This document shows positions 3,755-37,900 of a DNA stretch of 64,000 nt, in pieces. Source of the stretch: Selaginella tamariscina (Eukaryota > Streptophyta > Lycopodiopsida > Selaginellales > Selaginellaceae); contig PUQB01000248.1 of NCBI GenBank assembly GCA_003024785.1, positions 288,258 through 352,257 on the forward strand, written 5' to 3'. The notes beneath the pieces were generated by a model that had not been told where the DNA came from, searched no databases, and worked only from the letters and a program-made list of their open reading frames with translations. A program made the translations under genes and the position numbers. The stretch's first letter is position 1. Each line of letters begins with the position of its first letter.

Positions 3755-3801
<47 letters not shown>

Positions 3802-6049
3802 AGAAAGACAAACCTTTGTATAGAACAGGAGACACCATAACAGAGTTACCGAGCATGAACTGGGAATCGATTCCCAGGGTCCGGGAGTCCTCGGGAAACA
3901 CAAAGAAGAGGGGTCTGGCAATGGGCCAACCCCGAGAATGGGCAGAGTACACAAGAGTGTATAGATAAGGAAGCAACCTATAGCGGATCGAGAGTACATT
4001 CCTGGCGGATTCCGCCACGGATGCCCACATATACAGCTGGTGAGGGAGGGCGTGGATGTCGTTGTGGTTCCTGGAAAACGGGTAGAACGCACCGAGCTGT
4101 ATCCAGCGGTTGCAGAGCTCCTCAGTTGTATTCCCGATAAACCCGCAGATATCCGCGCCAACCATTGGGATTCCCACCATTCCCGAGTTCAAAATACTCA
4201 CTATAGAGTATCTGAGGTCCTCCCACGTAGCACCGTTATCGCCGCTCCAGTGGGCGGTATACCGCCCAGAGCCGATGAAAGTCGATCTGGACAGCAGAAA
4301 CGGCCGCTTTCCGGTCGTCTCCTTGAGGGCTGTGTTTGTTACTGTGGCCTCTGCAAGCCCGTACAGATTGTGCGCGTCGTACTCAAGGACTCCCCCGTAA
4401 TGTGTCGCACTGGGAGAAACTGTTCTCCATCCAATGGGACGCTTAACCCCGTTGTTGTTTATAACAAAAGGAGGGTTTTCCCACTGGGAACTCGCATTAA
4501 CCGAGCACACCAAGCAGCAGTCCGTGAAACAGTCAGTTTGGTTCCCCACCACACACGCGGTACCGGAGCAAAAATTTGAAGCCTCGTTCATGTCGATCCA
4601 TAGCCCGTCGAACGGGATGATACCGTGGAAATCCGATATCTCCCTCGTCCAATACGAGCTAGTCTTCGGGTTGAGGAAGTCAGGGAAATGTACTGGTCCC
4701 GGCCATACCTGACCCATGTATGGCTTCCCGTACATGTCCTTGATGAATATATCTACCTCCTTCCCTCGTTCATATGCTGTGTAGTTGTCCTCCACTTTGA
4801 TACCTATAGAGAAACGTATGTGCACGCGTGCGTGTGTGTGTGAGAGAGAGAACTCACCTGGATCGATTATTATTACGTATTTCTGCTGGTTAGAGTGGAG
4901 CCGCTCCACAAAGGACTGCAACTTGTCCTTTGGGAAGTTAACTGGGTCGAGGGTGAAGTCCTTATAAGAGTCCATATAATCGATGTCTGTCCACATCACT
5001 TCGAGTGGTATACGTGCTAATGTATAGTTTGTAACCACGGACTGCAGCTCCTCCACGTTCTTGAAACCGTACTTGCACTGGTGAAAACCTGTCAATATAA
5101 TATAATATGTATATATTGTGTGTGCGTGCACACACATGTGTATAAGTGACTTGCCTAACGACCAGTAAGGCATGGGTGCAGGTTTTCCAATGAGGTCCGT
5201 AAGCTGCTCGACTACTGATAACGATGTGGGTCCAGCAAAGAAGTAAAAGTCGAAGACGCCACCGAGGACTTTGTATGTTAAGGTGTCCGGTCCATATTCG
5301 ATATCCATCCCGTTACTGTTGAGTAGAAGAACTCCATGTGAATACCCTTTATATGTAAGATTAGCACTCTCACACACACGCACGCACGCACACACCTTTA
5401 CGCACGTCCATGTAGAAGGGCCACGAGCCATACAGATTGACGTCCGTAGTCTGTGCGGAAGTGTCCGATGTCCATAACGAGTAAGTGGCGTTCCGGAGCA
5501 GTGTAAACCCTCCTTTTCTGGTGCTCTCCCCGAGTCCGTACAGCCGTGCATATCTCGGAACTGTTGTGGATACCTCGAGGTACTGGTCCTTGAAGGTGAG
5601 CCCTGTACCGGAACTGAATACGGCGTCGCCGGTGGACGTTCTAACGATGGAGAACGTGAATGGATCTTCCGTGTATACAAACTGTAAAGTCCGGAGAGAG
5701 GAGTTGTCCAGCCTTCTCGGCCGCGGGATGAGTGTATCTGGGACTTCCCATCTTGGCAGTCTCAAATCTGTTATGTGGACTCTCACACTGTCGCTCGATT
5801 CGTAACTATGGAGAAGAGGAAATGAGAATCACGCACGCACACGTACGCGCACACGTACCGTACAGTGAGTTTGAGATTCTGTATATCGGGCCCGTAAGTG
5901 TTGGAGGGTGTACGGATCTCGAGATGTGCAACAATGTCCCCGTGATTTTCTGTGATAGATTTGAGCTTGTATCCTCCTAAACTATAGACACTTACAAATA
6001 ATAATTGGAGCACCAGCACAACCTTGAGAAAAGCTGAATAATTGGCCAT
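3178..6049 (-). CDS. Glycoside hydrolase family 31, secreted alpha-glucosidase / alpha-xylosidase
   Basis: Six exons close in frame: 6049-5859, 5805-5396, 5346-5155, 5088-4858, 4803-3814 and 3740-3178, giving 858 residues and a TGA stop. The start at 6049 precedes a hydrophobic signal peptide ([18 protein letters not shown]); an in-frame ATG at 6070 would add seven residues. Domains in order: N-terminal mutarotase-like sandwich (V-R-V-H-I, R-W-E-V-P), the (beta/alpha)8 barrel with nucleophile motif [10 protein letters not shown] (Asp ~412) and acid/base motif [10 protein letters not shown] (Asp ~529), then C-terminal beta domains. Length matches plant family members (~900). Secreted plant GH31 enzymes act in the apoplast on maltose/starch products or trim xyloglucan; sequence alone does not let me choose between the two. 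The third intron has a GC donor. The last intron holds a (TA)n tract. No frameshift or stop was found. It is divergent from the Spb1 gene. Confidence 0.93.
3758..3799. repeat. (TA)n microsatellite in the last GH31 intron
   Basis: About 20 TA units lie inside the intron 3741-3813. Slippage here would change intron length but not coding sequence. Confidence 0.9.
5089..5154 (-). other. GC-AG intron of the GH31 gene
   Basis: On the minus strand the exon ends ...TTAG and the intron starts GCAAGT, ending TTGACAG. Only this GC donor joins the codons into P-Y-W-S-L-G-F-H-Q-C, the conserved GH31 sequence. The nearby GT would put the next exon out of frame. Confidence 0.85.
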
Positions 6050-11960: not shown

Positions 11961-14900
11961 AGAACTGATGGTTTACGAATTATAATAACTAATTATAGTA
12001 TATATTATTTTCTTACTTTATTTATATAATTATAAGTCAATAACGTATTAGTCGCCCCTGAGTACATGTATATTTCTTTATATAGACTATTTACATATGC
12101 TTTTAAATATGGCTTTCCATATTATAATTATATATATTAATTTATTTATATATACGTATAAAAAGGTGTATACACATAATAATAAATGACATCACATTTT
12201 GTCTAATTCAATAGTTTTTATAAAAAAAACTATAATGAATTAAGCAGAGTTACTTTTATTTAAATTGGAACGTAATATACTCTGAAAGTTTTCACACCCG
12301 TATATATATATATATATATCTTTCAAAATTTAAAAGCAACGTGTACCATGTGGGATGGAGATTAAAATGAAACTAAATTATTTAGAGAACTTCATATAAT
12401 ATTTAAAATGTTTAAATATAAATTTTAACTAAGAAATGATATTTAAAATTTATTATTTTATTCATTTAAAGCAGAATAGAATGATATTATATATATATAA
12501 TCTATGGAATGAAACAAAATAAATCTAATTTATAAATAACAAAATGTTAGTAATAATTATAATCTTGTAAATAATTATAATATACATGTTTAAAGAACAA
12601 TGTTTTGAAGTTAAATACTACGACTTCTTAATGTGATATTATATGTGAGCCATAGATAAATAGTAGAAAACAACTGACTTAAACAAACAAAAAAGAAAAA
12701 AACAACAGGTAAACTAACTTAGAAAGAAAAGAATGAAAATATTTGCACTAAGAAAAAAGACTTGTATTCAACTTAGATTAGAAAATTCTTTATTATATAT
12801 AAATAAATTATCCTATATTTGGTGATTTTTAACTTCTAAATGGAATATACATAAAATATGTTTTATAGAATCTTTATAAGACCACAATTTAACTTTACAT
12901 ATATTTAATGTTCTACACAACATTATGAAACTTTTTGATGTGAATTTTAAATAAATTCAAAATGGACATAACTTAGGGTTATTTGCATCAGCCCTTAACT
13001 TAGCATGCAGTTAAAATTAAGGGTGCTCCCTTAAGAAAAAAGTTAAGAGTTTTTTAATTTGTATTAACCTTTAATTTAAATTAAGAAATTGTGTTAATGC
13101 CAGTGGATTCACATAAATACTTACAGTGAAAATATCAAGGACAATGAATTTGAATATTGCCCTTAATATAATATACTTTATATTTATATTAAATTAAAAT
13201 TATTAACTTAATTATTTTTATAATGAATTTAACATATCTACATTTAATTTAACATTATTATGTAATAAATATTTTTAAATAATTTTCAGTTTATAATAAA
13301 TATTATTTTTAATTTGTAATAAAATATTTTTAACTACTTTAAAATATATTTATAATATCCACGATTTAAATAATATGTGCATCCTTAATTTTTATTAACA
13401 TTTAAAGTGATTTTAATTATTATAAAAAATATAAAATATGGTAAGATGCTTATACAATACATATTGGATTTTATACTCATAAAATTATATATATAATAAA
13501 AAAATTCTAAGGGAATTGGGAATTTTGGCATTATGGTTGTGGCATTGGAATCGTAAGACATTGGAATATCACGTATTGAAACATAGTATTTAGCATGTGG
13601 ACTAACCTTAATTGCAGTATTTTGATGTGTTTTATATTAACAAAAAAGATAATGTTTCTGGGTACATTTTATAGATAATAAATTTTTTATATATTTTGAA
13701 TATGTTTAAAGAAGTAAAAACTTTATGAAAAATATTATATATACATATGCATGTGTGTTAACATGTGTGTATATATGTATTTGCATTCCATATTTTTATT
13801 TATTTAATAAAAAACATGCAAAATATATTTCTTCAAGTCTCTCTCTCGATTTTTGTATATACACACATACGCATAGGTACACGCATGCAACATACACATG
13901 CATACACACGACCTTGCAACGACACAATAGAGACCTCACAGAAATTAAGGCAAAAACTAAGACAAAATGCGAATATACTTTTAAAAAATTCATTTGTATT
14001 GTTTTTTTAATTTTAATTATATAATAAAATAAAAATATAAAAATATACAAATATATTTTTCATGTATAAAATACACATTGGGCATGAAAAATATATATTT
14101 TATTTTATTTTAAAGTTATGAATCGTTAATGGTGGTTAAGGACTCCCTCGTCTCTTAAATTTTCTTTATAATTTTGTATTGTTCTTTTGAAATAAGTTAA
14201 GGGATTATTACGAATTCATTATTCTTAACAGTCGAACCCTTCAAAAAATCTTAAGTAAGTCCAATTTAATGCCATTAACAATTAAATCCTTAAAAAGTTA
14301 AATAAGTGAAACTTAACTTAATAGTAAGTACGAATGTATTTTCCTTAGTTAAGCCACTTAAGTACGAATGCATTTTCCTTACTTAAGCCCACTTAAGTTA
14401 AGCTAAGGGCTGGTGCAAAACGACCCTATACCCTCCACTAAAAGGCCACCACACATTGAATGTGCGATAGACATCCTGCATCACAAAGTTCTCATATATA
14501 TATATATATATATATATGAAGTGGCCTTAGTAAATCATGTTATTTGCCTGTTGAATTTATTTAAAATTCATTTAAATTTTTATTATATTCTCATTAACAA
14601 ATTAAATATAAAGGAAATTATTAAGTTAAGCCCTTATTCTGATTATACTTAATTCATAACATGTAAAAAGCTTTACAATTCCTTTTAAACTTAAGAGGTG
14701 ATCATTTCCGGAGTGATGATATTCTATTTAAAATACCTTTTCATAAACACATTATTATTATAACTAATAAATACTTATGGGGAGTGAACATTAAATAAAA
14801 ACATTATTATTATTATTATCAACTAATAAATATTCGTTGATTATTGACTTTCTTCCTTATCAAACTTTGGGTTTGACATTTCCTTGAGCGCAGTTTGCCG

Positions 14901-15174
14901 AGCGCATGGATTTCTGTCATACTAGAATATTCCATTCCGTATAGAATATTGATTTTTGTATAAAGAATATTCTGGTGCGGTGGGCAGGCAATCATGGCGG
15001 CACGGTAACGGTGTCAAGTTTCACAAATTTGGGGGATTAATCTGACATATATATTTATATTTTTATATTTATATTTATGTTTTTAAAAAAAAAAATTATA
15101 TTTATAACTATAATTATATTTTATATAAATACCGCATCAAACTAAATAAAAATTACAATATAAACATAACTCAA
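11961..15174. other. AT-rich intergenic region
   Basis: No gene recognised. It includes a ~250-bp stretch (12385-12640) that recurs, inverted, at about 47430-47645 beyond the second Spb1 copy, which shows that the duplication extends past the gene. (TA)n tracts lie at 12300-12320 and 14494-14517. Small open frames at 13.7-14.0 kb are AT/GT-repeat artefacts. Confidence 0.6.
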
Positions 15175-18100
15175 TCATAAAGATTCGTTTCCACCATCTA
15201 GTGCCTCGTCGTTAATGAATGCATTGTTACGATGTCGTGAACGTTTCTCCAAAATCTGTCTGTCGTAAACTTCGAACTCTTCAACCATTTTCTTTGCCAT
15301 CTGATTAGCATAGTCTAGCAGGACAATACTGAAAACATGTTAAAGTTTAAAACCAAAGAAATGACAAACAAATCTCACTCATCATCTGATGACTCGTCTA
15401 ATCTCTCTTCTGCTGACTCATCTGATGACTCGTCATTGTGCTCCACGGACTTCTTTGTAACAACATCCTCATCGTTTCGAGAAGGCGGATCCTGGTCTCA
15501 TCGTTGTCGCTAGCCAAAAACAAATCCTATGCTTCTGTTTCCATGGCCCTCTTCCACTCATCAAAAGGAAACGACTTGATCATCCCCACCACCTTTAGCT
15601 GCTGTAACACCTGGAATGACCTTCCTAAAGACATCTCTAGCTTTAAAACTAGATCCTTGTTGATGTCGATTCCATAACCATGTCTCCCTATGTGAAAAGC
15701 TGCAAGAATACTAGCTTCGGTTCCCATTGTTAGATCCACGACAATTCCACCAGGCTTTGTGAGCTTCTCCACTAGCATCGCAAACAACTTGGGAGATTTC
15801 AGACCAATTGAAATCCTGAAAGTTGCAATGTTAGAAAATGAGAAATAACAAACAACATTGTACCTTTTGGCTCATCAAGAAGAAGAGTGTAGCGAGTGTC
15901 CAGGATCTCCTTGTTCTTCGCAACCTTAGAGTAGGGGGAACCAAAAAACACATGGCAATGATGCTTTCCTAAAAAACAAACATTAGAAAATGACATTCTC
16001 AAAAGAAGAATTACCTTTCTAGAGAAACGGTATCCTCAGAACCTTGTCATGTGCACATAACTCATCTGCAAAAACTTTAGCTTGCAAGTTTCTGTAGTGT
16101 TCTTCAAAGCTGGAACATCATCCGGTTGCACAAACACCACCATGTGGCCAGCTTTGTCTAGTATCCCGAAAGCAAGGTTCACCAAGTTCTTCAGCAAAGC
16201 ATCCGAGAACTTTGTGTATTGATCCACCATCCAGCAACGCATCCGGTAGGCGGGTCGATGACAATGAGATCAATAGCTCCCTAGATGCATTTCGGTGGAG
16301 GCTTCACACCAAACACATGAATAGTCCAACTTGACTTGTGACTCACGTCCAATCCTCAAGCTCCTTCAGTCCCGATGGAAAAGGCCTTCCGGCTTTGAAT
16401 ACTGGACTACAAGGTTCTCTAAATCTACATGAATGATTTCCAGCTTTCGTTTCTCTTCTCAGGCATCACCATCCTCAACATATCATCTTTTTCCAATCAA
16501 GCCGAGATGAAGGATGGGGCTAAAAGAAGAAGCTTGTCCCTTGCTGACCTTGCTTGCCGATCTGACATACCTGATATCCATCTTTATATGGAGCTTCCAC
16601 ATTGTCATTCTTCCATAATAGCTCTCGCCGATCATCCTTGTGTATCTTATAGCTGGCCATCTCCCATTTGGGACAGTCACCAGGAAGGAAATCTAGCTAG
16701 AAAGGATAGTGTTCCACTTCGTAATCACTGATATCGCGTAACAATCGGCTCCACATGCTAGAATCCCGGCAACATCCATTCACTCTTCGAAATCTTTAGG
16801 GAGTGCATCGTTTTTCCATTTAAAAAACCTGCAAAAATAGATAAAAATTTATAAAGAAACAAAAAAAAAAAGACTTACATGAATGCCATTCTTTTTGCAG
16901 ACTTTTCCAGCTCAAATAGTCGAGAAGGTGGAATTGTCGCACCGAACTCCTTGTTCTCGAGCATGCTCTGGTACATATCCAACTTGATTTCATTGTGCAT
17001 CTTCATATACCAGGCCATAAACTCGTCAACGTAACTGCTTGCATGCTTGATCACAAACTCTTTAGCTGCCTCCCGACCTGGCACGATAAATGAGTAAAAA
17101 TGAAAAATATAAATACTAAATTACCTGAACCAGTAAGTAAAGATGTGCAAAAACTTGATGAAGTCCTTATCAGGCCAGCCGGTGACACCTTCCTTCTTGT
17201 CTTTCTTTGTCATGTTCACTAGCTTTTCAAGAACGCCATGTTCTTGAATGTGCACAAGCTTCTCAAGGATATCAACCTTGACGTTGGAAGGAAGCTGGGA
17301 CTTCGCGAGCATTTGAAGCTTCTCCAGAGTTATTTGCTTCATCGATGGTTTGATAGTGATATCTATGATCGCCTTAAACCAATCTTCATCGACCACCAGA
17401 TCAGCAATGGTGAGGAATTTGTTCATCCGAACGGTGAATGTCTTTAAACGTTGGAGAGGATCTGAGATTCTGTCTGGTTTGGTTTCCTGTTTGCAAGTTT
17501 TGTAGCGATTTGTCACTTCAGTTGATTCTGCAAAAGAAACCAAAAATCAAAAAACAATCAAAAGAAGAAGAAAAGATTATCTCCCAAAAAATCTTCACCA
17601 ATGTCGTCTTTGGATACTCGTACCAAACGTCTTCTTTTCTGTTCGATCTCCACATTTCCACAACTTTTTATCTTCCTCCGGCATCCCACAAGAACATGAT
17701 CGGTAAAAAGATTTGCAGACTTCACACAACAATTCCGTAAGAACTGCAAGGTGTGAATGATCGTTGTAGGAACCACATGAGCAGTTGCTCTGCAAAACAA
17801 AAACAACATTTGTTTAGTATTTAAATAATGAAAAACAAGTCACTTACTCATTCAACCGATTGCAAGCAGCGATCAGTCTCTTCTACTCCTGCGTTGTGGA
17901 TGCTATGAGTGTTGCACGTACACGCAAAGTCCATTTCAAGCCTGGCTCTTCAGCAAGTAGAGTGTTCAAAGCAACCTGACGATGATTCCCATCCCACACC
18001 AGAAACTTTGCATCTTTCAGAAATCGATACCACGCAGAAAATGCTGGCTTATGCAAATCCGCTTCAAACTCTCTATCGACCTGTGCTTCTGACTCATTCC

Positions 18101-18766
18101 AGCTTCGGTGTTCGTTTGCACTCAATTGTGGTTCGAAAGATAAAGTGAACACCGACGTCTCTTGGTAAATCCTTCAACTCTAATCCATCCAACAAGGTCT
18201 TTCACGCCGTCCTTAGTGACATTCCTCAAACGTTGGTGTGGGAGCAACCTGTGAACCGGGATATGCGGAGGCTCGCCAAGCTCAATTGGAACATAGTGGT
18301 CTCGTCCTTGTAGCGATGTGTCAATATCCGTGTCATTCGAATAACAAGATCCCGAAGAAGCTTGGATGGAGCCTCAAGTGTCAGCCATTCCGGAATGCAT
18401 ATGATTGGGCAACATCCTCAGGAGCATCTAGTTTCCTCTTTTTGTTGAACGCTCTATTACCAAGATCAATGTCCGACACTTCCTCTACATTACCATGTTC
18501 TACAGAGCTTCTTACAATCTCCCTATCTCTAGGCATTCATTCACTCACCACAGCATGTTCATCAATGATTTTGCGAACTATCCACAGATTTAGTGTTCGT
18601 CGGCATCATCTCTTCGCGCTGCAGTTGTTGCTTGGCACCTCCTCGGCCTCCTTTTCTTGCCACGAGGTTTTGGAGCCATATTTGCAAGAACTTCTTGGAT
18701 GATATGTTCCTGAATTGTCAAAGTCTTGTATTTATCTTGCAGTCTCTTACTTTGTCTTTGCCCCAT
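15175..18766 (-). pseudogene. ParB-like domain fused to amino-type (N6A/N4C) DNA methyltransferase, multi-exon, frame-broken
   Basis: The start at 18766 opens a basic, nuclear-localisation-like N terminus (MGQRQSKRLQDKYKTL; PKPRGKKRRPRR). Around 18320-17960 is a ParB/sulfiredoxin-like unit: I-P-V-H-R-L-L-P-H-Q-R-L-R, then a V-K-D-L-V-G-W-I helix, then FLVWDGNHRQVAL, which matches the ParB pattern 'DG-x-x-R'. The middle (17543-16875) is helical and unrecognised. At 16280-16036 comes IDLIVIDPP(Y), catalytic motif IV. At 15787-15660 lies S-P-K-L-F then KPGGIVVDLTMGT and GRHGYGID, the AdoMet motif I. Motif IV before motif I is the beta-group order of DNA aminomethyltransferases. A Ser/Glu/Asp-rich segment and a last exon ending at TGA 15175 follow. 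Introns have GT-AG ends. Five or more single-base shifts (one inside DPPY) and several in-frame TAGs interrupt it. The class is clear; activity in this copy is doubtful. Confidence 0.75.
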
Positions 18767-18779
18767 TCTACAATTACAA

Positions 18780-19560
18780 CAACTAATAAGAGTGTGTGTG
18801 TGAGTTATTCTAATTTATGGACACACATTTACTATATATGTATGCCTATCAATATATATGGACACCACACATACACATATTTGTGCATGTGTAATGTTGT
18901 TTGTGTGTGTGCTCACTGTATAATGTTACTTGTGTGTGTATATGTGTAATGTTGCTTGTGTGTGTGTGTGCAATGTTGTTTGTGTTTTGTGATGTGTCTG
19001 TGTGAGAGAGTGAGATTCCGAATATGGGTATATTCATATCTCTTCACATGTATGTATATCAGACGAAAAAGCGTCATCTCATATATACAAGTCTTAAATT
19101 CATATACTTATACATTACATTAGTAAGTATAATATAAAGACTTGTTATATAAAGAATACTAAGACTATATATATATATATATATATATAAACAAGTCTTT
19201 TTAAGTATGTATTTATATATATAAATAGACACAACACACACACATGTATACAAGTCTAATGCTGTATATATAATATCATAATGTGGTACGTGTGTGTAAA
19301 ATGTTGCTTTGTGTGTATGTGTAATGTTGCTTGTGTGTGCATGTGTATAATGTTGCTTGTGTGTGTATGTGTATGATGTTGCTTGTGTGTGTATGTAAGA
19401 TGTTGCTTGTGTGTGTATGTGTAATGTTGCTTGTGTGTGTATAAAATGTTATTTGTGTGTGTGTGTGTGTGTGCGAAATCGGCAAGAACTCATGCCGCCG
19501 GAGAGTGGGAATGTGTGTGTGTGTGTGTGTGTGTGCGTTCGTGAATAGAGAGAAATCCTA
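18780..19560. repeat. (GT)n microsatellites and ~22-bp minisatellite upstream of the methyltransferase gene
   Basis: Variants of gtgtgtatgtgtaatgttgctt repeat about seven times at 19280-19460 and again, more loosely, at 18885-18990. Pure (GT)n tracts lie at 19450-19470 and 19511-19534, and (TA)n at 19168-19190. Minus-strand His/Thr-rich open frames here are simple-sequence artefacts. Confidence 0.8.
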
Positions 19561-20450
19561 CTGAATTCGCACATATATGCACAGAAATTGTTGTTGAATT
19601 TACACACACATACATAAGATTTTACCTGCAGCTATGTTGTCATGACGCTCACATTAGCCTCATGTTGCCACAAATGAAGAACAAGAGCGGCTGCGAAAGA
19701 AGACCTCTCGACAATGGAGAATGGAGAAGAAGAGTGGGGCATTCCTAAACCTTTACCCTAAAACCTAACCCTTAACCCTTTGACCCTTAACCATAAAACT
19801 ATGTTTAATCAAACCATGCAACAGTATATACAATACTTGCGATAAATAACATACTATAAAAAAGGATACAAATACAAACACATATTTAAGTAATGATTTG
19901 TATGTTAAAAAAATATATTATAATATTAAACAATATTCGTGTAAAACTATATTTATAATGTTTACAATAGTACATATTTATATAAAATATTGGTTTAAAT
20001 GGCTATATAATTATAGTAATAAAGTAACAAAATATAAACAAGTCATAAATATGTTAGATGAAGATTAGACACACATTTATTTAAAAGACAATAAAGATTG
20101 CTCTATCTCTACGTGAAGTGTTATCCTATATTAGCATCTAAGATTTATACGTTCCTCAAATTAAATATCCGCCCAAGTTGAGTCATGATTGTGAATTCTT
20201 GGAACGGTAATATCCGATATTTACCAAAAGATGATTAGGTAATGCTGTTATTTTTTTGTCACGTTTGTGATAACTATTTGCACAATGGCTATGATTGTTT
20301 ACGGCAATTTGGATCACGATGTTCATGTGATAGATGGTGTTGGAATCGTTCTTATTAATCAGATCAGAAACTTCTTTGGCATTTTTGATTGACAAAGTGT
20401 TCACCTTTTTAAACTTATCCATGGGTAATCTACTTTAGAGATCGAAATAA
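19561..20450. other. Intergenic DNA with degenerate telomere-like AACCCT block
   Basis: 19740-19795 holds degenerate CCTAAACC/AACCCTTAACCC repeats. The rest is AT-rich with no recognisable gene. Confidence 0.5.
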
Positions 20451-21160
20451 ATGAGGACCAAGATGCTGGGAGGAAGGATACCGGGATATGTTTTTTTACC
20501 GAATGGAGAACCATTGTTTAAGCTTGTCGTTGCTTCTGACTCTGAATACTCAACGTTGAAGGACCTTTTCACTTCTAATAGCTGCAAAAAGGGAAGAATT
20601 CTTATCGAGGGTTCCATGATCATTCATACAAATGAATTGCCTGTTGCGTATGGTGGGGATGTCATTTTTGAGCTCCCTCCTTCCGAGTACAAATACAAAG
20701 GAATGAATCAGAAAGAGGATGGACATACCTGGACAACAGGAACGACCAACAACTGGAATTTCCAAGCAAGGGTGTCTAGGAGCAAATGTTTGTGAGCCTT
20801 TGCTGTATCAACCCGAACTGCGCTGCTTCTAAGGCAGGATTTCCAAACTGCACTAAATGGAAAGGATGTATTGTTTCCCTACCTACAACATTATAAAATA
20901 TAATATATTTAATATTCATCATCGACAAACTGGTAAAAGGATTGACATGTTTTTTCTGTAAAGAAAATCCATTGTGCCTTGAAGTTTGTCATGCTGTGGC
21001 GTTCTGTGGTTTCCAGACGACATAACCAAGACTAGATTGTTTATTCACCAGGGAAAACATTCACATCCAGTGGGTTATGGTGTTTCTGCATTGAGCAAAG
21101 AAGAAATGATGCAAGTTGTAACTAAAATGGGCATGGCTATAGTCCCATTTCCTAATAATT
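20451..21160 (+). pseudogene. Cys/His-rich protein fragment, possibly transposon-derived
   Basis: An open frame of 114 codons (20451-20795) is followed in shifted frames by a cysteine-rich segment: C-L-G-A-N-V-C, then C-C-I-N-P-N-C, F-P-N-C-T-K-W and C-K-E-N-P-L-C-L-E-V-C-H. It ends near 21080 with TKTRLFIHQGKHSHPVGYG. The spacing of Cys pairs and the terminal G-K-H-S-H-P resemble zinc-binding modules in front of some transposase domains, but I cannot name the family. At least two single-base shifts and one AT-rich insertion or intron (20890-20960) interrupt it. The first 114 residues match nothing I know. Confidence 0.4.
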
Positions 21161-21614: not shown

Positions 21615-23636
21615 TTAAGCTTCAGAAAACATACATTCCCTTGCAGTTTTGTTAATCGTGACTTTATCAACGCTTCTTGACATCCACCCATATCGAATGG
21701 ATTTAACATTTATAAAACATGCTGGGTCTTTTTGATTGGGAGACCATGTTTTCTCTAGGCATCCATTATATCTTTCGCTCTCCTTCTCGTGTCACCTTTT
21801 TGTGGTTTGAACCATGCAACCTTAACAATACTATTTTTTGTGATTACTTCAGGTGTGTCGATAATTTGACCCATCCAAATAGGCTGATTATATGACGCAT
21901 CTGGAGTAATGAGAACCATCATTAGTTTTTGAAGATCCTGGCAACAATCAAAGTATGCTTTAGGTTTTGGTTCCTTTGTCCAACAAAGTGTGGGGTTTGC
22001 ACTTCCACATCACTACTGGCTTCTATGTCGTCTATGCTCAGTGATGTCATTTCAATCTCCTCTCGCCACCTTGTTTTAGGCCAGAAGGGTGTTGCAATTC
22101 TGTACTTGTGACAGTAGGCCCTTCCAACTCTCGAACAACAGTCTCCCAATAGTCGACCACATGCTTATATAGTTTTGAGTAACCAGTTGCCTTATCAGAA
22201 TTCTTTGGCATCGATTTTTGAACCCATGCCACATATTTTTTGATGCCATCAATAATAACCTCTTGTTCCTTGAGCTGGGCACTCAATGGAATAGGGTCTA
22301 GTTGTCCTTCTGGGAGAAGTGGCTTTCCATCCTCTCCACTTTTGAAGAGCATTAACCCCTCTTTCGGTAACCACTCCTGCTCTGATGGCCGTAACTTGTA
22401 CTGCATAATAGGTATACCATCTCGTATGGAGAAAAAAGAATTGTAGCGGCACAAGGTGACTAACTAAAGAATCACTCCCTTCTTTTATATACTCCTTGAG
22501 AAATTTTTTGAAGTCTGGCACCTCAATCACAAGCAAAGCACAACTTTTTTTGGAGATGCAATTTTCAAAAAGATTCATCATATGCGGTAAGGTAAGTGCA
22601 CTTGTCCTTTTTGTAGAGTTGGAGACCTTGCTGAAGAACGCATCAATATCTTCATGAGTGTGACCAACCATAAGGAAACTGAGCGTGATTGTTTCAAACA
22701 CACCTTTGGCAACAAGCATTGACAAGTATGCTAACACATATCTAGAAAATAAAAGTAAGTATGAGCTTGAGAAACCCTTAAGTAAAATGATTTACCTATT
22801 TTTGTTCTCGCCTGCACAATTATCCATCTGTAAAGCAAATGACGAGGAAGCTTATTTGATGTTGAGGACACATGTACACTATTTGAGCTAGATCCCTCCA
22901 CTGAACCAGAACTCTCAACAGGGCCATCTATTTTCTGTGCAGGCTGTTGACAATGCCTCTCATATTCCCCAAGTAGCCTCAAGTGTAGACGTGTTCATGA
23001 GAGCATTATGTAAAGGTTGAAGGTGTTGTTTCTTCTTTGAGATCACTGATAAGACTTGTCTGTGAGTGGGCTTCAAGGTTTCTAAAACACATGGCTAACG
23101 ACCCAATAGTGAAATTGGAGTCGCTAGACCAATGTGGAAGTGAAAAGTGTCCATATGACTCACAACCGTGTCCATGTGTTAGCACACCTGTCAATGAAAT
23201 CGGAAGTTTCATGACATTTCCAAGGCACTTTGGTGTTGCAAAGAGTTTGGAATGCTGGTCTTTGAATGATCCATCTTGTCATGGATCAAGCACAGGTACT
23301 CTGATGGGCGTGACACAGAAAGCATGCGTGTGCATAGTACTGAGACCGGCAAGTTTGTTGTGCAATCATGTGGGCCTCCATCTTCTTTTGAATGGCAGTG
23401 ATCTCCACCAAGGTTTTTGCACAAGCCTCTGCAGCCTTCAATGATGTACAAGTGTCACACTTGGAAAAGCTAGAGTGTTTTGCAATCTCCACATCCTTAA
23501 AATGAGTATTCCATATGTTGTTGAAGGTACCAGTGCAGATTGTTTGGAGCCCCATCAAACTAAGGCACTTGTTCACATTTCACACAGCTTCAATTGAGTG
23601 TAGATTGAAGGCAAAACCTTGAGATTTTCACACCCC
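21615..23636 (-). pseudogene. DUF7869-type transposase, left copy, 5'-truncated
   Basis: This is a second copy of the gene at 30353-32550, in the opposite orientation. It begins abruptly at 23636, at the place matching 30816 of the right copy, and abuts the palindrome array. It keeps the RNase-H-like core: the counterpart of Q-M-D-N-C-A-G-E-N-K-N near 22830-22800, then FLMVGHTHEDIDAFFSKVS at ~22700-22630. It also has a C-terminal module that the right copy lacks (W-M-G-Q-I-I-D-T near 21870, then G-W-M-S-R-S-V-D-K-V to TAA 21615). A one-base shift near 23320 breaks it, but near 22950 it keeps the frame that the right copy has lost. Such proteins are thought to be DDE/RNase-H-fold transposases. 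Confidence 0.75.
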
Positions 23637-23655
23637 TTCAGTGACTCCAGAAAGG

Positions 23656-25045
23656 GGGCGGGATTAATCTCGCCCACCATGTAAGTGATGGTTAAATGAA
23701 TTTCCCCACCCTTCCCAATTCTCTCCATTGGTATGTTGAAAACCTTCTACGTCTCAGACAGAAACGTTTGGGATTGGTCCGAACTCACCAATGGAGAAAA
23801 CAAAGGAAGGGTGGCGGGATTCATTCCTCCAACAGGCATTGAAGGCTCGGCGGGATTAATCCCGCCGCCCAGGGCCTTCACTCGGTCCCTATGCGGCGGG
23901 ATTAATCCGCCGGACGCCAATTCCCTGCGCGGAATCGGGCGGGATTAATCCCGCCGCCTAGGCACTTCAGGCAGGCCAATGGCGGCGGGATAAATCCCGC
24001 CCGATTCCGCGCAGGGCATGCGTACGCGGCGAGATTAATCCCGCGTCCCAGGCCCTTCACTCAGGCCTTAGTCGGCGGGATTAATCCCGCCGAACGCCAA
24101 TGCCCTGTGCGAAATCTTGCGGGATTAATCCCGCCGCCTAGGCCCTTCAGGAAGGCCAATGGCGGCGGGATAAATCCCGCCCGATTCCGCAGGGCATGCG
24201 TACGCGGCGGGATTAATCCCGCCCACCATGTAAGGGATGGTGAAATTAATCCCACCACCCTTCTCAGTTCCCTCCATTGGTATTTTGTAAACCTTCTCCG
24301 TCTCAGACAGAGTTAGTCGGGATTGATTCAACATACCAATGGAGGAAAAAAAGAAGGGTGGCGGGATTAATCCCGCCACCGGGTAATGAAGGTTCGGAGA
24401 GACTAATCCGCCGCCCTCTCGTAAATCATGCGCTCACACATATATATTGGCTGCGGCATTTTGAACAGGGATGGGTGGGGGCGGGATTAATCCCGCCGCT
24501 TATATCCTGCGGAAGTGCCTGAGCGGCGGGATTAATCCCGCCGCCCTCCGCGAAGGGCATGAGCGTGGGGCCGGATTAATCCCGCCGTTCATGTCCTGCG
24601 TGAATTCCCTGGGCGGCGGGATTAATCCCGCCGCCTTACGCGCAGGACATGTCATGCAGGCTCTTCGGTTAGCCTTCCGTGCAGGATCTTTCATGCAGGC
24701 TCTTCGGTTAGCCTCATGAGCGGCGGGATTAATCCCGCCGCCCATCCCCTGTAAATGCCCTGTGCGGAATCCGGCGGGATTAATCCCGCCCATTAGGGCC
24801 TTCACACAGGCCATTGCCGGCGAGATAAATCCCGCCGCATTCCGCGCAGGGCATGGGTGAGCGGCGGGATTAATCCCGCCGCGAGGCCCCTCACACAGGC
24901 CATGGGCGGCGGGATTAATCCCGCCGCCTGCCTGCGTGAGCGGCGGCGATTAATCCCGCCGCCATGGCCCAACCATATAGCGGCGGGATTAATCCGCCGC
25001 CGAGGCCATAAACCTATAGCGGCGGGATTAATCCCGCCGCTCGAG
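23656..25045. repeat. Left array of the 18-bp palindrome GGCGGGATTAATCCCGCC (~25 copies)
   Basis: The unit is a perfect dyad centred on ATTAAT, with GC-rich flanks that are often also complementary. Copies occur every ~35-70 bp, for example near 23850, 23940, 24070, 24205, 24360, 24480, 24525, 24605, 24720, 24860, 24905 and 25018. Variants keep the dyad or alter the centre to ATAAAT. Spacers are mostly unique. A ~200-bp block (23656-23870) is duplicated at 24205-24395 and contains its own inverted pair (ctccattggt / accaatggag). A 23-bp tandem duplication lies at 24654-24718. The array starts where the left transposase copy stops. Confidence 0.95.
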
Positions 25046-25130
25046 GGGCTTAGCGTGTGTGCGAGAGATAAAATTAATAAATAAAAAAATTATACAGATA
25101 AAAACACACACATATATATATGTGTGTGTG

Positions 25131-28699: not shown

Positions 28700-29570
28700 A
28701 CCGGGGGGCGGGATTAATCCGGCCATTTCTTTTTCGCCTCTTCGAAGAGGTGGCGGGATTAATCCCGCCACCATCTCTCGGGCAATGCTTCTCCGCCACT
28801 GAAAAAGAGTGGCGGGATTAATCCCGCCGATAACCTTCTCAACTGATGAAGAGTTACCAGAATTTATTAGAAAGAGTTGTCGGCGGGATTAATCCCGCCA
28901 ACCATTTTAGGAGGCAGGGAAGGGGTGGCGGGATTAATCTCGCCACCACATCCCTGTTTTAAGGATTTGGGGACAGGATTTATCCCGAGATCTCTTTGAA
29001 ATCATAGTTTTGGAGAGAGTTATGTGCGGGTTTAATCCCGCCACCCATTCCCCGTCGTAAGAATTGTGGGCGGGATTAATCCCGCCTTGGACTCCCTCCG
29101 ACAAGGAAGAGCCGGCGGGATTAATCCCGCCGCCTCTTCCTCCTCGGGGGGAGTCCGGCGGGATTAATCCCGCCGACTCCTCCTCGGGAGAGAGTCGGCG
29201 GGATTAATCCCGCCGGACTCCCCCGAGGAGGAAGAGGCGGGATTAATCCCGCCGGCTCTTCCTTGTCGGAGGGAGTCCAAGGCGGGATTAATCCCGCCGA
29301 CTCTCTCCGAAGGGGTTGAGTCGGCGGCGGGATTAATCCCGCCGACTCTCCTCGTCGGAGAGAGTCGGCGGGATTAATCCCGCCGGACTCCCCCGAGGAG
29401 GAAGAGGCGGCGGGATTAATCCCGCCGGCTCTTCCTTGTCGGAGGGAGTCCAAGGCGGGATTAATCCCGCCGACTCTCTCCGAAGGGGTTGAGTCGGCGG
29501 CGGGATTAATCCCGCCGACCGTTCCTCGTCGGAGGGATTCGTGGGCGGGATTAATCCCGCCCATCAGTTG
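28700..29570. repeat. Right array of the 18-bp palindrome GGCGGGATTAATCCCGCC (~19 copies)
   Basis: The same dyad as in the left array, every ~40-60 bp, for example near 28752, 28810, 28882, 29113, 29157, 29194, 29236, 29282, 29328, 29367, 29455 and 29544. The distal part is more degenerate; the part next to the transposase gene is more regular. There the spacers themselves repeat (gactccctccgacaaggaag and its complement), so neighbouring units form longer inverted repeats. It ends ~130 bp before the transposase-associated open frame at 29704. Confidence 0.95.
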
Positions 29571-30352: not shown

Positions 30353-32550
30353 ATGGATCCTACATCTTCCGAAAGTGTTACGAGCATTTCCACGATTGAC
30401 TGTTGCAAGAAGAAGTGTTGTCAGATGGCAGACCGGAATGAAATTACCCAATGTAGACATGTCTTTCGTATGCTCACCCAAAAGCAAAGGCATGAGTTTG
30501 TATATGCTGCACTAACTGGGTGTATTGATGGAATGGCCTCGGACACAGGTTATCAGAGTACATCCATGGTATTTAATAAGGTGGCCATCTGCTTCAAAGC
30601 TTGGTACAGTATATACGGGATCCCAAAGACCACGTTCTACCGTCGGAGGGATGAGTGGCTAGATGGAGCGCGAACCTCAGTTCATGGGAACACTCGCTTG
30701 GTCAAAACCCGCTCTCACATCATGGCAGCCATAGAGATACTCAAGGCTTTTGTGGAAGCAAATGCAGACAGGATGCCTCACAAATGCCGAACCACAAATG
30801 CAGGGGTCAGGGAAAATCTCAAGGTTTTACCTTCAATCTACACTCAATTGAAACTGTGTGAACATGTGAACAAGTGCCTCAGTTTGATGGGGCTCCAAGC
30901 AATCTGCACTGGTACCTTCAACAACATATGGAATACTCATTTTAAGGATGTGGAGATTGCAAAACACTCTAGCTTTTCTAAGTGTGACACTTGTACATCA
31001 TTGAAGGCTGCAGAGGCTTGTGCAAAAACCTTGGTGGAGATCACTACCATTCAAAGGAAGATGGAGGCCCACATGATTGCACAACAAACTTGCCGGTCTC
31101 AGTACTATGCACACCGCATGCTTTCTGTGTCACGCCCATCAGAGTACCTGTGCTTGATCCATGACAAGATGGATCATTCAAAGACCAGCATTCCAAAGCT
31201 CTTTGCAACACCAAAGTGCCTTGGAAATGTCATGAAACTTCCGATTTCATTGACAGGTGTGCTAACACATGGACACGGTTGTGAGTCATATGGACACTTT
31301 TCACTTCCACATTGGTCTAGCGACTCCAATTTCACTATTGGGTCGTTAGCCATGTGTTTCAGAAACCTTGAAGCCCACTCACAGACAAGTCCTATCAGTG
31401 ATCTCAAAGTGAAGAAACAACACCTTCAACCTTTACATAATGCTCTCATGAACACGTCTGCACTTGAGGCTACTTGGGAATATGAGAGGCATTGTCAAAC
31501 CTGCACAAAAAACAGATGGCCCTGTTGAGAGTTCAGGTTCAGTGGAGGGATCTAGCTCAAATAGTGTACATGTGTCCTCAACATCAAATAAGCTTCCTCG
31601 TCATTTGCTTTTACAGATGGATAATTGTGCAGGCGAGAACAAAAATAGGTAAATCATTTTACTTAAGGGTTTCTCAAGCTCATACTTACTTTTATTTTCT
31701 AGATATGTGCTAGCATACTTGTCAATGCTTGTTGCCAAAGGTGTGTTTGAAACAATCACGCTCAGTTTCCTTATGGTTGGTCACACTCATGAAGATATTG
31801 ATGCGTTCTTCAGCAAGGTCTCCAACTCTACAAAAAGGACAAGTGCACTTACCTTACCGCATATGATGAATCTTTTTGAAAATTGCATCTCCAAAAAAAG
31901 TTGTGCTTTGCTTGTGACTGAGGTGCCAGACTTCAAAAAATTTCTCAAGGAGTATATAAAAGAAGGGAGTGATTCTTTAGTTGGTCACCTTGTGCCGCTA
32001 CAATTCTTTTTCTCCATACGAGATGGTATACCTATTATGCAGTACAAGTTACGGCCATCAGAGCAGGAGTGGTTACCGAAAGAGGGCTTAATGCTCTTCA
32101 AAAGTGGAGAGGATGGAAAGCCACTTCTCCCAGAAGGACAACCAGACCCTATTCCATTGAGTGCCCAGCTCAAGGAACAAGAGGTACAAGAATGTCCAAG
32201 GAACATGAGAAACATTACAACCAAGCAAGATTCTTCAAGGTCGGATCAACAACGTGGAGGTGGTTCAAAGAGGGAAGACTGAGGCCTTCATTGTCTCTGC
32301 AGGCATGCAATCTCTAGGGTAACAATTTCTACTGTTCCGTCATGCACTTGTGCAACTTTTCAGAAACCAAGAACTAGAGCCCCTGCCAACACATATATTT
32401 TGTGTACACTCATGTTCTTGGATTGGACCCAACGATTACTTACTTCTTACAGAGGCGAACCCTTACTCCAGCAGAAGTGCATCGGTTATTAGTTGATTGC
32501 AAACGCAATGTCGAACCTGCGACTTTTTAAGTTTAGTCGGTATAGTAAAG
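30353..32550 (+). pseudogene. DUF7869-type transposase, right copy
   Basis: From the ATG at 30353 a long frame encodes a Cys motif (C-C-K-K-K-C-C), then V-A-I-C-F-K-A-W-Y-S-I-Y-G-I-P, then H-G-N-T-R, then K-C-D-T-C. This is the N-terminal pattern of transposon proteins carrying DUF7869. After a one-base loss near 31495 the frame continues to Q-M-D-N-C-A-G-E-N-K-N. An intron (31649-31702, GT-AG) follows, then VLAYLSMLVAKGVFETITLS and GHTHEDIDAFFSKVS, the RNase-H-like catalytic core. The 3' part after ~32190 differs from the left copy. A possible last exon ends at a TAA near 32530. These proteins are inferred to move DNA transposons in the nucleus. The left copy keeps the frame at 31495, so the parent gene was intact. 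Confidence 0.75.
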
Positions 32551-34919
32551 TCTAGTCGGCAAATAATTAGCGTTTTTCACTTGTTGGTCGGCATTTTATA
32601 TTGAAAGTTAAAGATAATCTACTTGGCAAAATATTCTAGATATTCCCATTTATTTGACAGAATATTCCTGGATATTCGGGAATATGAGAAAAGCCCGTTG
32701 TACGAAGCCCGGTTTTTGCTAATCCTCTTGTATGTACATACAATAATGTATGTGTGTGTGTGTGTATGTGTGTGGTGTTGTTTTAATTTTAATTTTAATT
32801 TTAATTTTTTATTCGTACTTTATGATTGAGGTACCTCAATCATATAGCTAAGTACAGTATTATGCATGTACTTATATGATTGAGGTACAAACTGTATATA
32901 TATTATTTAACTACTTTATTTATTATAATTAATTACATATGCATATATAAAATTATTTTATATTTAACTGTATTATTTCAGTATCCTGGGAGGAACAGAA
33001 ACTATGATCAGAGTTCCATCTTTCTAACTGACATATAGCAGTTATTTGGCAACACAATCAATATTATTCCACTTGAGGTACGCTTTATATATTTAAAATT
33101 TATATTAACTTAAGAATGTCATTTTACTAGTTCTATATATTATTCATATAGTTTCAGTATTTATTATTTTTATTGATTTTTATTGTTAAGGATGACAACT
33201 TCTTAAGGAATGGAATGAATAGTTGAAGAATGACAAGAAACTCTACATATCAAGAAGAAACATTCAGATAATCGAACGGTGTGTGTGCGTGTGCGTGTGT
33301 GTGAGAGAGAGAGACAGAAAGATGCTTACTCTTGATACCAGGCTCTTGAATTCTACGACCTGCCTTTGTCAAACTTAGACACTCTTCAACTCAAGCTATC
33401 AGTTTCGGTAAGTATATATCATCATCATCATCATCATCATTTCTATTTGAACTTGATAAAGAAAAGAATAACATGAAGATTTAAAATGGCATAAATGAGA
33501 AATGAACACATACATACAAATGAAATATATGGAATTCATGAAAAGAATTCTTTGAGAATATTCTCGTGGGACTTCATTAAATAATGATATTAAAAAGTTT
33601 TAATAATGTGTATTTAACTTATTGTCTTCGTTTTATATTGTCGTTGTTAGTTTAAAAAAACGGAAGAAGTTTTGTAGCAATATATTATGGACTTGAAGGC
33701 AATAAGGAGTTTTCATAATCTAACCTGTCTTCCTTAATGACAATTAATTAACTTAATTATTTGAATAATTTTATATGCATATAAATTAAAAAGACCTTCA
33801 GATTTCATTTGTATACATGATTTGTTATATATAAATTTGTTTTTAAATAAATTTTTCTTAATTTTTAATTAAATTTTAATTAATTACCATTAATATAAAA
33901 AGGGGGGTTGGACTGTGAAAGCGTTCCAGAAAAAAGGAGATTGAGAGAGGGAAGACAAAGACGGGAAACGAAGTGGTTCTACACACGCAACTAGAAAAAT
34001 GCAACACACGGGAAAAAAATTGCACCATTACAAACAAATATACCTTGCTGTTAATTCTTACGATTAACGACAACAAGTCAAGTCAACATTATCATTCTAT
34101 TCAAGCACATTGAATTTTCTTCTTCACTTTTTTCTGCATTTGATTGGTTGGTGGTATGTTATATGTATATACCTTTTGATACACATTATTGTATACACAT
34201 GTTAAAGTAGCAAACATGCACTATTGTTTAATTAATCCGTTCATTAATTTTGCTTTGTCTTTGTCTAGTCGTTGGTGGGAAGAATCTGAAGGACACATGA
34301 TGGATGTCGAAACAGGATCCATACGTCATCCTTCACTACGGAGATCAAACGTTGACTGATATGGTTATATGCTCATTATTAAAATATCATTTCATTTCAT
34401 ATACAGTATGTGTCTATACACACACGCAACTCGATCCCGTATAAGTCTACGTGTGGTTGCGTGTAAAGTAATAGATCACAAAGTGTAAATCTCGAGTTCA
34501 CTGAAAGTATACATACATACAGATACATGTAAGATGTAGCTATACATACATACATACGTCGATTCCAAAATGTATATGCATATTACATCTGCATATTAGA
34601 ATGTATATATGTAATAATTAATAATATTATAATATTATACATCTTATTACATCTGCCTTACAGAACTCAAGATGAAATCTCCAGAACTCAACAATCTCAA
34701 CAGGAGCCAGTTTGGATCTATGGGTTGCAGCATTTCATATGAATGAAGCTTCAGCTGCTACTTATGTTACAAGTGTCTGATGAGCGGGTGTATTTATTTG
34801 TATACACACACACACACACACGCATCTATATGTATATACATACAAACATACACGTGGATTCAAGTAAATACATATTAATATAGAAGCTTGTTATTGAAAG
34901 GCAGAAATATACATAACAG
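32551..34919. other. AT-rich intergenic region with microsatellites
   Basis: Contains (GT)n near 32750-32775, (TTTTAA)n at ~32781-32808, (CAT)n at ~33419-33440 and (CA)n at 34804-34821. No gene recognised. The 3' end of the minus-strand ROCO gene should fall just below 34920. Confidence 0.6.
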
Positions 34920-37900
34920 TCATTGATGTTGTTGGCACAGCCAAACATGCCGCCCATTCTGTATTCTCCTACGTAACCCCAAGTCACGCTCCAGATCCCT
35001 TCCCTTCAAAAACATATCATGAGATTCATGAAACTCTTTCAGCTCGTCTCTCGTCGGAAATCCAGACTTGAGGTGTTTATCAACGTTGCCAAACACTGCC
35101 TCCATTACTGCTTGAATTGCTCCATCCTGGGACCCTTGGGAAATGCAGATGCCGGAGATGGAATGACAACACCAAAACCCGCAATAGCGACCACCTTGAG
35201 TGCAAAGAACATAATTCTGAGTGCTGGAACTAACACTGGAGCTGCTTTCTTGAACCACTCCGGACTTACAGTGATTTCTATACCTCGTTGGTTCTCCACT
35301 GGATGACAACGCCGGTGGCTTTCACATAAGAAATGAAGCCTCAGAGTCGAGCCGAATGCAGATTGAGACAGCTTCTGGAGGAAGTTGTTCTCGTCTGTTA
35401 TGTATGGGTACTTGGGTGCCTCAAAGTCCATATGGAGCATGAGCTTAGAGAGAATCTCACCTAATTGCATGTGTACAGCATCCATTTGTTTCTTGACAAC
35501 CAACTCCAGTCTGTGAATCTCGCTTGTTATCCTGGCTTCTGAAGTTCTTATCTGCCTCACTTTGTCACCAATGCTTAACTCGCTGGTACCATCCGTGGTA
35601 CTATGCTCACTGTCACTAGTCGTTGCATCTAAACACTCTTGTACCTCGGACCCGATGACATTCAGGTTGCTCTGCTGTGCTGCAAAGTATTTATCCCGTT
35701 CACTCGGCAACAAGAGCTCATAAATTGGATTACTCTGCAAACTTGGCCAAGTATGTTCATACAGCAAAGTGCGACCATCCATGCTGAGCTCTTCAACAAG
35801 TGAATTTAGTGGACACACATCCTCAAAGCTTGAACTTAAGTTGCTCTCGATTTGTTGCGGCCTGATGACTTTCTCTTCCAGTTCCAGTGCAGGACATCCC
35901 CAGTTCGGAGCTCCACAAACTTCAGCAATGCACAGGTTCACGCGCTGGAAAAGGTCCTCGGCATGCTCCAGTAGGTACGTCTCACAGTCGAATGGTATTC
36001 GAACAAGTACATCCACCCAATGCATATCATACCACTCTTCTCTGCTGCCTCCAATCTTGACAATCACATGAATTCTGTTCTCCACCAGGTAGAGCCAGCC
36101 TTGTCCAACCCTATGTTGAGAAAACATACCTGCAAGTGTCACTTGAAGCATGTTGAAGATCCCAGATGGCAGAATTGTTGTCTCAGAGTGTTTGCAATCG
36201 AATCTCCTTCCCCAGAAACAGTAACTGCTGACCTCGGGCCTCCCACGTTCTTGCTCCCATTGCTGGAGAGTTTCTTCCAACAAAGGCAAGATCTTCACAT
36301 GAGTTTCCTCCTGGTTTGGTAGCACCACACCTAGCTTCTGAAGTGAAGACAGTATGTAAGGAATGTGAGTTGCTTCACACCTGGTTGCGAGTTTTGCATG
36401 AACACTCCTGATGGACTGCACTGCCGGAGGTCGTGGGTCATTCAAGTTCCTTCCTAATCGAGGCAGAAAAACACCAATAACATCTCGCAAGAACCACTGA
36501 ACATCCAGGACAACAAACTGTTGTGTCTCGTCTGGTGTGTCATCTTCAAAGTAGACCAGTTCTCCACTATCGTGAAGATGCATGAGACATGCCTTAAACT
36601 GGTTATCGTTGAAGTTTCTCATGTTGTGCATGTACCTGAACTTCTCAAGTGACACCACCTTGGGTTGCTGTGTAGCATTCAACTGATTCATGATGTGATT
36701 GCAAACTGATGGAACTTTTGGTCTCTTCTCCAACACTCCTTCCAAGGCTCTTTCCAATGCTCCTTTGAGTTGTCTAACTTGGGTGACACTTGTAGCCACA
36801 ATTCCATATACACTAATGCTTTCTGTATCTCCAAAGTCAATGCACTGCGAGTAATCTTTGATTACCTCTTTACATCGAATCCATGCGAACTCTTTCATCG
36901 TCGTTGTACTTGTGGATCTCTCGCTAGTCGGAAAGTAATTGAGAAGTATCATACTCTTGGCCTCTGTGGGACAAGGAACGATGTGCAACAATGAATCTCA
37001 GCCAATATTTGAGTTGTTTTTCTAGCTCTGCTGGATCGTCTGCAGCTGTAGGAGCCTTACAAACGAGGAGAAACAAATCTTTATCACTGCCTCTTACAAA
37101 GTAGTGATGAAATGCATGGTACTCAGATTGGCCAGCTAAGTCACACACAATCAACTTCTTATCTGTAAAGCATAAAGCTTGAAGCTCTATTCCATAAGTC
37201 GATTTTGATGACTGAAAAATGCTGGGGACCCCAACCCTTCTGGCAAGGTTCTTCCGAATGGTTGTCTTCCCAACTCCAGTGTCTCCACATATGAAAAGCT
37301 TAGCATTTGAAGGTGCGGTTAGGCCTTCGTCTAAAAGACCTCCTTCTCGATAGAGTTTGTTCCGCTTCAAGATTTGCAAACAGCTTTGGTGTAACACTTC
37401 AGACTTCCACTGATCAAGGTCCAATGTCACCAATGGACAATCGATATTCCTGTTCAAGAAATCCACAAGCTTCCGTTGTTCTCCAAGCGGCACCATGTGT
37501 TCCACTGACAGTCAGGTGTCTCAGCCTTGAAGTCGATATAGCTCGCTCAAAACGTTGCGAGCTCTCGAGCAAGAACTGGCCGGAGTAGATGTACAATCTG
37601 AGATGCGTCAACTTGGAACTGAGCAACGACTCCATGTCGAGACGATGAGAGGTATCCAAGAAGAGTGATTTGAGCTTAGATCATCCTCGTGCAATGTTGT
37701 CTCCAACACTTGAACAAAATCATCATACCTACATTCTAAAGATAAATGTTGCAGTTTGCTACATTTCAGGGCATCTAGAAACTGCCTGTACCCTTCAGTT
37801 TCCTTGTCCTGGTGTCCTATACTTAAGCTTCGCAATGTACAGTCAGGATGCCTGAGAACATTTGCCAGATCAAGGTAACTGCTCATCACCCATTGAATTT

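Follow-up and report, generated by a model that had tools for sequence, protein, structure and literature searches.

What does a gene that joins a bacterial-type amino-methyltransferase domain to a DGNHR-box unit do in a plant, and does it belong to the host or to something that moves within the host genome? We addressed this question in a 64,000-nucleotide stretch of the Selaginella tamariscina assembly (contig PUQB01000248.1; hereafter the window), in which a disrupted gene with predicted introns, composed of a DGNHR-box unit, helical blocks and a relative of the N6_N4_Mtase family, occupies the minus strand of 15175-18766. A preliminary description of this DNA had considered either a horizontally acquired gene or the cargo of an undescribed mobile element decaying here, and the second idea fits: the window holds a dead, 5'-truncated copy of a multi-copy transposon. 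The locus is very probably a degenerate copy of a land-plant DNA transposon with terminal inverted repeats (TIRs) and a transposase resembling that of Mutator-like elements (MULEs), an assessment that concerns the transposon and not any marking of DNA by it; that the gene is part of a transposon we regard as almost certain. Judged by sequence, there are three families of this two-gene TIR DNA transposon in the 300.7-Mb plant genome, designated W (the window's own), A and B; gene content and ends are given by the sequences themselves, and the class of the transposase by its motifs.

The disrupted gene and its copies in the genome

All motifs quoted in the preliminary description were found on the minus strand of the window, in the order claimed. 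The first of them is MAPKPRGKKRRPRR (about 18680-18637), followed by the N-terminal unit (18373-17886), which contains VWDGNHRQVAL, comprises HIPVHRLLPHQRLRNVT and FLVWDGNHRQVAL in two reading frames and is ParB/sulfiredoxin (Srx)-like by motif only. The helix-rich middle (17531-16878) consists of coding blocks that tblastn against the fetched copies identified as kin of family A and B blocks. Two further blocks make up the methyltransferase part, one (16692-16039) with motif IV, where IDLIVIDPP lies at about 16271-16248, and the central portion, the other (15811-15530) with KPGGIVVDLTMGT...GRHGYGID, that is, the S-adenosylmethionine (SAM)-binding motif I, and an acidic tail after it. The blocks are separated by GT..AG gaps, which we take as predicted introns; the outline of the gene as a whole rests on motifs, Pfam and comparison to the W copy. 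In 16/20 A/B loci and in the one W copy read, a single strand carries the WDGNH box, motif IV and motif I in succession, which supports a single predicted gene, as had been proposed, instead of two adjacent ones; the box is absent from the remaining 4/20 A/B loci. The assignment to a plant genome also holds, as a LEAFY SAM domain was detected in the same assembly (E 7.8e-38) and in 0/14 control genomes. An Rfam scan of the window at gathering threshold gave no match.

On either side of the gene the window retains further parts of the element. The methyltransferase-side terminus (14975-14869, minus strand) has its TIR end at 14869, agrees in its terminal sequence with the W copy of contig C473 and contains subterminal GAATATTC motifs at 14925 and 14965. 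Upstream of the gene lies an intergenic region with a TG/CA-rich minisatellite (18830-20450); repeat arrays occupy the corresponding regions of A, B and W. Beyond this region lies a remnant of the N-terminal part of a divergent transposase (20487-21156, plus strand). This remnant was recognized by its DNA match to W and by tblastn to family A (41.9% identity, E 1.3e-13, and 41.4%, E 3.7e-7); it stops at about 21.1-21.16 kb, and neither the remaining transposase nor the 5' TIR was found there.

A search for intact paralogues, suggested in the preliminary description, revealed many copies in the same genome, several family A copies having coding blocks open throughout. With PF01555, the best 150 of 739 candidates were scored and 150/150 exceeded the cut-off, most at 37-38 bits. 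Twenty ten-kilobase stretches around such matches were fetched, comprising 12 of family A and eight of family B, and the two families share about 65% DNA identity. Three extended A copies are 98.2-98.7% identical to one another over about 8.1 kb, and two B copies show 93.1 and 97.0% identity in two stretches; among the matches listed, locus L009 shares 98.2, 97.4, 97.3 and 96.8% with L011, L019, L013 and L018, respectively, over about 7.4 kb. For the W motif-IV exon piece, the best 150 of 178 candidates were scored, with the window itself first and at least 49 matches sharing a single score and being free of internal stops. A 54-residue W stretch across motif IV gave 143 matches among the best 150 of 152 candidates, at least 67 of them identical. 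Statements on the architecture and ends of W rest on the one W copy read, on contig C473, which has open blocks of 237, 314 and 212 amino acids.

The copy in the window has decayed. Its DNA matches W at 90.0% identity between 19268 and 14860 (4502 columns including gaps) and at 85.5% between 21108 and 19454 (1701 columns), the match ending at 21108. Within the methyltransferase gene, the identity to the W copy reaches 93.2% over 3942 aligned bases (Kimura two-parameter distance 0.072), with 39 indels, 23 of which fall in exon ranges (approximate and set by hand), 21/23 having lengths that are not a multiple of 3. Differences of the C-to-T type affect 39/277 CpG positions and 110/1412 positions elsewhere, a pattern that would fit a methylated, silenced window copy. 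The ratio of observed to expected CpG, considered as a sign of self-methylation, was not informative.

Element ends and the divergent transposase

The examined copies span about 7.8-9.1 kb (A1-A3 8.1 kb, W 9068 bp). Family A ends in short TIRs, read by eye as GAG..G.CAAAAA..GGGCTT, together with subterminal GAATATTC clusters, and the TIR of the W copy is imperfect (TCGAGCGCAG...CGTAC.GATTTCCGTC). Target duplications of 8-9 bp flank four of the six copies examined, namely A1 (cttcacaa, 8/8), A3 (gagatcatg, 9/9), B1 (cgtgcgat, 8/8) and W (GATATATGA/GATGTATGA, 8/9). TIRs together with target duplications of 8-11 bp are a hallmark of MULEs, and this combination is present in A1, A3, B1 and W.

The better preserved elements carry two divergent genes, the transposase being encoded on the strand opposite the gene with the methyltransferase domain. 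The SDE(S/A)GA motif of the transposase was found opposite the methyltransferase strand in 14/20 A/B loci and also in W. Segments resembling a MULE DDE core were recognized by eye: an aspartate in LDHTHR, a second in SDE-GA, a C..H pair in RSCLFH and a glutamate in NxSE. MULE transposases have a C-terminal SWIM zinc finger, and the transposase described here ends in a CxC..CxH finger whose match to the SWIM profile varies among the families, with 20.2 bits in an A copy (cut-off 19.6), a score under the cut-off in B and no match in W. On these motifs, we consider it likely that the transposase is MULE-like. A protein search with it returned one relative among the best 7995 candidates (P0001, E 7.8e-41), which also has a sub-threshold SWIM match, and no reverse transcriptase was matched by Pfam among the 13 element open reading frames (ORFs) scanned. 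Canonical MULE transposases also occur in this genome (L046-L048); 16/77 matches share one score (95 bits), and their frames are open over 433-673 amino acids, which marks them as a separate, probably recent family.

Both genes appear to be under constraint. For each block, one A copy was compared with one B copy; the proportions of nonsynonymous and synonymous differences (pN and pS) are 0.267 and 0.850 over 620 codons of the accessory gene and 0.203 and 0.796 over 442 codons of the transposase. As A and B are saturated at synonymous sites, pN and pS only are given; since the proteins retain 49-71% identity by block all the same, selection seems to have maintained the accessory protein, as with the transposase.

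These findings bear on two other origins of the locus. A single host gene gained by horizontal transfer and now a pseudogene here would agree with the resemblance of its methyltransferase domain to plasmid and bacterial enzymes, and with host acquisitions documented, in the available text of the sources, for the N4-cytosine methyltransferases of Marchantia and bdelloid rotifers (PMC8885841, PMC12344493). Those proteins are likewise bacterial-type amino-methyltransferases in eukaryotes; they are, however, host genes, the rotifer enzyme has SPPY as motif IV, and the likeness is drawn from their description only. The high copy number, TIRs, target duplications and linked divergent transposase of the present element lead us to disfavour this origin strongly. 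An endogenised virus is less probable still, and we give it hardly any weight. It would recall a Wolbachia prophage methyltransferase with a predicted ParB-like N terminus and a similar order of modules in the part of its account available to us (PMC3089641), which is a prophage gene likened here by description only. Two scans of IMG/VR viral contigs, with one query piece each, confirmed no relative, 0/13 scanned ORFs match a viral structural family above cut-off, and the examined elements end in TIRs, with target duplications in the four of six copies named above.

The methyltransferase domain

That the C-terminal domain has a methyltransferase fold is virtually certain. In the stitched window protein, in which the coding blocks are joined with X at frame changes, the N6_N4_Mtase profile expected by the preliminary description scored 34.1 bits (Pfam cut-off 26.7; E 3.4e-8), the match being confined to the motif I half (profile positions 166-216). 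The same half is matched by the C-terminal block on its own (24.5 bits), by the family A protein (39.6 bits) and by profile matches to the PDB entries MboIIA (3.3e-6), DpnA (1.5e-5) and CcrM (1.5e-4). The motif IV half is covered by phrog_67, which spans residues 1-177 of the domain (E 7e-6), and by plasmid methylases, whose alignments take in residues 1-174 of the domain's 195; the three strongest have E values of 1e-4 to 2e-4, and the rest are weaker. In NCBIfam, the domain matches PRK13699 best (E 0.0038). With a four-member profile, hhalign aligned the domain end to end with one plasmid methylase (96.6%, E 4.9e-10); this alignment and the extent of the phrog_67 match agree with the proposed beta arrangement, in which motif IV precedes motif I in a single domain. 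The plasmid DNA methylase WP_107535750.1 (hit H21) shares this whole-domain alignment and motif order but is a stand-alone bacterial protein of 226 amino acids. A protein search with the stitched window protein brought up no relative at E<=0.001 in the 7993 best-sharing candidates, and a tblastn search of phages returned generic methylases (best E 0.03 among the best 20 of 103 records).

The catalytic motif requires a correction. Motif IV generally takes the form (D/N/S)PP(Y/F/W). The DPP(Y) of the preliminary description is not what the gene encodes, since the tyrosine belongs to another frame and the one that runs through the motif gives DPPT in the window. In W the motif is VVIDPPTG, with DPPT in the 67 genome copies identical over 54 residues, and in A and B it is FDLPN and LDLPN, respectively, with DLPN in 20/20 A/B loci. 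The forms named in the available text of a published account are DPPY, SPPY, NPPY and DPPW (PMC8885841). Motif I is retained, as WDIGSGTGSS or GSGTGSL in A/B and as VVDLTVGTGAS in the W copy read. Because DPPT in W and DLPN in A and B stand in place of DPPY, an active enzyme is not to be assumed: the domain is a relative of the N6_N4_Mtase family whose membership as an active enzyme is uncertain, the more so in A/B. From the motifs, catalytic activity seems somewhat less likely than not in W and improbable in A/B.

An explanation to be weighed at this point, which overlaps with the transposon reading, is that the domain is transposon-borne and catalytically dead, and either assists transposition by binding DNA or SAM or counters silencing by displacing the marks of the host. 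The replacement of DPPY by DLPN throughout the A/B loci and by DPPT in W speaks for it, as does the maintenance of motif I and of overall constraint, whereas the retention of D-P-P in W speaks against it. We regard it as a serious candidate whose chances fall slightly below even.

The DGNHR unit, the intergenic arrays and a possible role

The proposed ParB-like nature of the N-terminal unit is tentative. A DG(N/x)(H/R)R-type box is typical for the ParB/sulfiredoxin superfamily, and the WDGNHR box is present in 5/5 aligned sequences (W, A, B, the window and a fern); a ParB profile match was not obtained, no family named ParB being matched in Pfam, NCBIfam or PHROGs and none among PDB sequences. 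Besides the box, the sole tie to the superfamily consists of short, sub-threshold DndB matches (E 0.0016 to 0.016), and hhalign of the unit against one plasmid ParB gave 2.5%. We put the odds that the unit adopts a ParB/Srx fold slightly below even. In a profile search with the DGNHR unit, the sole relative among the best 7998 candidates was the Adiantum nelumboides hypothetical protein L7F22_058580 (P0002, E 8.5e-8), a fern homologue of the unit with 29% identity to family A, which differs in being a predicted protein of 186 amino acids without the methyltransferase part.

The region between the two genes offers candidate target sites. In A1 it contains 11 exact palindromes, spaced about 40 bp apart, that share the core CCCAGTCGGCATGCCGACTGGG. 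The motif GCCGACTG occurs 27, 27 and 25 times in A1, A2 and A3, and 6 and 11 times in B1 and B2 (expected 0.17-0.18 each), its sites lying between the genes and, singly or doubly, near an end; in the flanks of these five copies it was found 0 times. Between the genes of the W copy lie two exact palindromes of other sequence, CGGCAGGAATTCCTGCCG and GGCAGGAATTCCTGCC.

Directed marking of the element's own DNA would be a plausible role for the accessory protein. Its N-terminal and helical parts, or the transposase, may recognise element DNA, perhaps at the palindromic intergenic arrays and subterminal motifs; the methyltransferase domain would then bind SAM and mark the DNA on an amino group, and the mark would allow the element to escape silencing or would time transposition. 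In A/B, with DLPN, the domain may act solely as a binding pseudoenzyme. A stronger proposal, which we consider unlikely, is that of a class of plant DNA transposons marking themselves with a bacterial-type amino-methyl group, N4-methylcytosine or N6-methyladenine (4mC/6mA), by a pairing like that of parS and ParB: the DGNHR unit would recognise the family-specific palindromic array between the divergent genes and focus the methyltransferase on the copies, thereby controlling silencing or the timing of transposition.

Several observations weigh against this picture of the element and its role. The transposase gave no match to the MULE model (PF10551) in the Pfam scan of element ORFs, and its hhalign comparison with a canonical MULE of the same genome yielded a probability of 0.4%; for these reasons it is labelled MULE-like and not MULE. 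Its SWIM score in B (18.9 bits) is below the cut-off, and W gave no profile match though its CxC..CxH is present. At A2 the target duplication is imperfect, with 6/9 positions agreeing by eye, and the left end of B2 is not fixed. Motif IV departs from its general form in W, A and B alike. The motif GCCGACTG was picked post hoc from the A array, whose tandem units supply most of the counts, so that independent signal comes from the sites in B and near the ends; the window copy is devoid of it, its intergenic region having A/T palindromes only. The helical block of the W copy lies in more than one frame, so this copy too is perhaps damaged. Finally, AlphaFold models were poor, with a mean predicted local distance difference test (pLDDT) score of 42.3 for the DGNHR exon and 39.7 for the transposase exon.

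A second fragment from this group of transposons lies elsewhere in the window, at 32186-32727 (minus strand), where a family A 5' terminus (95.8% identity to A) is fused to a DUF7869 gene. Among the best-scored matches to this 542-bp family A end (40 of 1195 candidates), 39/40 share only this part and the 40th is the window, and the junction at 32185/32186 occurs in the window only. The DUF7869 genes at 22-32 kb were considered as a transposase of the element; this reading was rejected, as the shared 542-bp end is a family A fragment and none of the other scored matches shows its junction. These genes form two stretches, 22258-23640 (minus strand) and 30799-32185 (plus strand), which are 97.6% identical, the right copy matching DUF7869 with 95.8 bits; both adjoin minisatellites with the palindrome GGCGGGATTAATCCCGCC (about 23848-25046 and 29069-29561) and perhaps represent another mobile element. 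The window also contains a Glycosyl hydrolase family 31 gene (3755-5758, minus strand; 377.4 bits), a gene for a ROCO-type protein with Roc (39.2 bits) and COR-A (37.0 bits) domains (35108-37511, minus strand), and, at 26527, 26991 and 27081, short interstitial arrays of TTTAGGG, a repeat of the plant telomere type.

The available text of earlier reports describes transposons that carry C5 methyltransferases, Dam-like enzymes (DIRS), TET/JBP dioxygenases and SET domains (PMC5890265, PMC12730594, PMC8885841, PMC12344493, PMC3089641, PMC10853773, PMC12695648), so the theme is known and the present element is a variant of it. In the open-licence literature, judged by titles and abstract openings, we found no description of a DNA transposon with an amino-methyltransferase. 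The nearest parallels, as far as the available text goes, are SymbioLINE-Dnmt, SymbioDIRS-Dnmt3 and charophyte elements, which are retrotransposons with cytosine methyltransferases, and DIRS elements with Dam-like N6A enzymes (PMC5890265). Like these, the element is selfish and encodes its own DNA methyltransferase domain; their enzymes are of the C5 or Dam-like type, whereas here a TIR DNA transposon combines a MULE-like transposase with a beta-class domain and a DGNHR unit. Fungal TET/JBP DNA transposons and plant Vandal MuDR elements with their anti-silencing proteins, in the portions of the source at hand (PMC12730594), resemble it in having an accessory gene that acts on DNA marks or silencing, but the former carry a dioxygenase in place of a methyltransferase fold, and Vandal is likened by description only.

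Transposons bearing their own epigenetic enzymes are a route by which non-native DNA marks may enter eukaryotic genomes, and the fern homologue suggests that the DGNHR module extends beyond the genome of Selaginella tamariscina. A bacterial-type amino-methyltransferase gene present in many copies in a plant transposon would be a testable source of 4mC/6mA in plants, and the three families, which differ in the state of motif IV and in their intergenic arrays, provide a natural series on targeting and catalysis.

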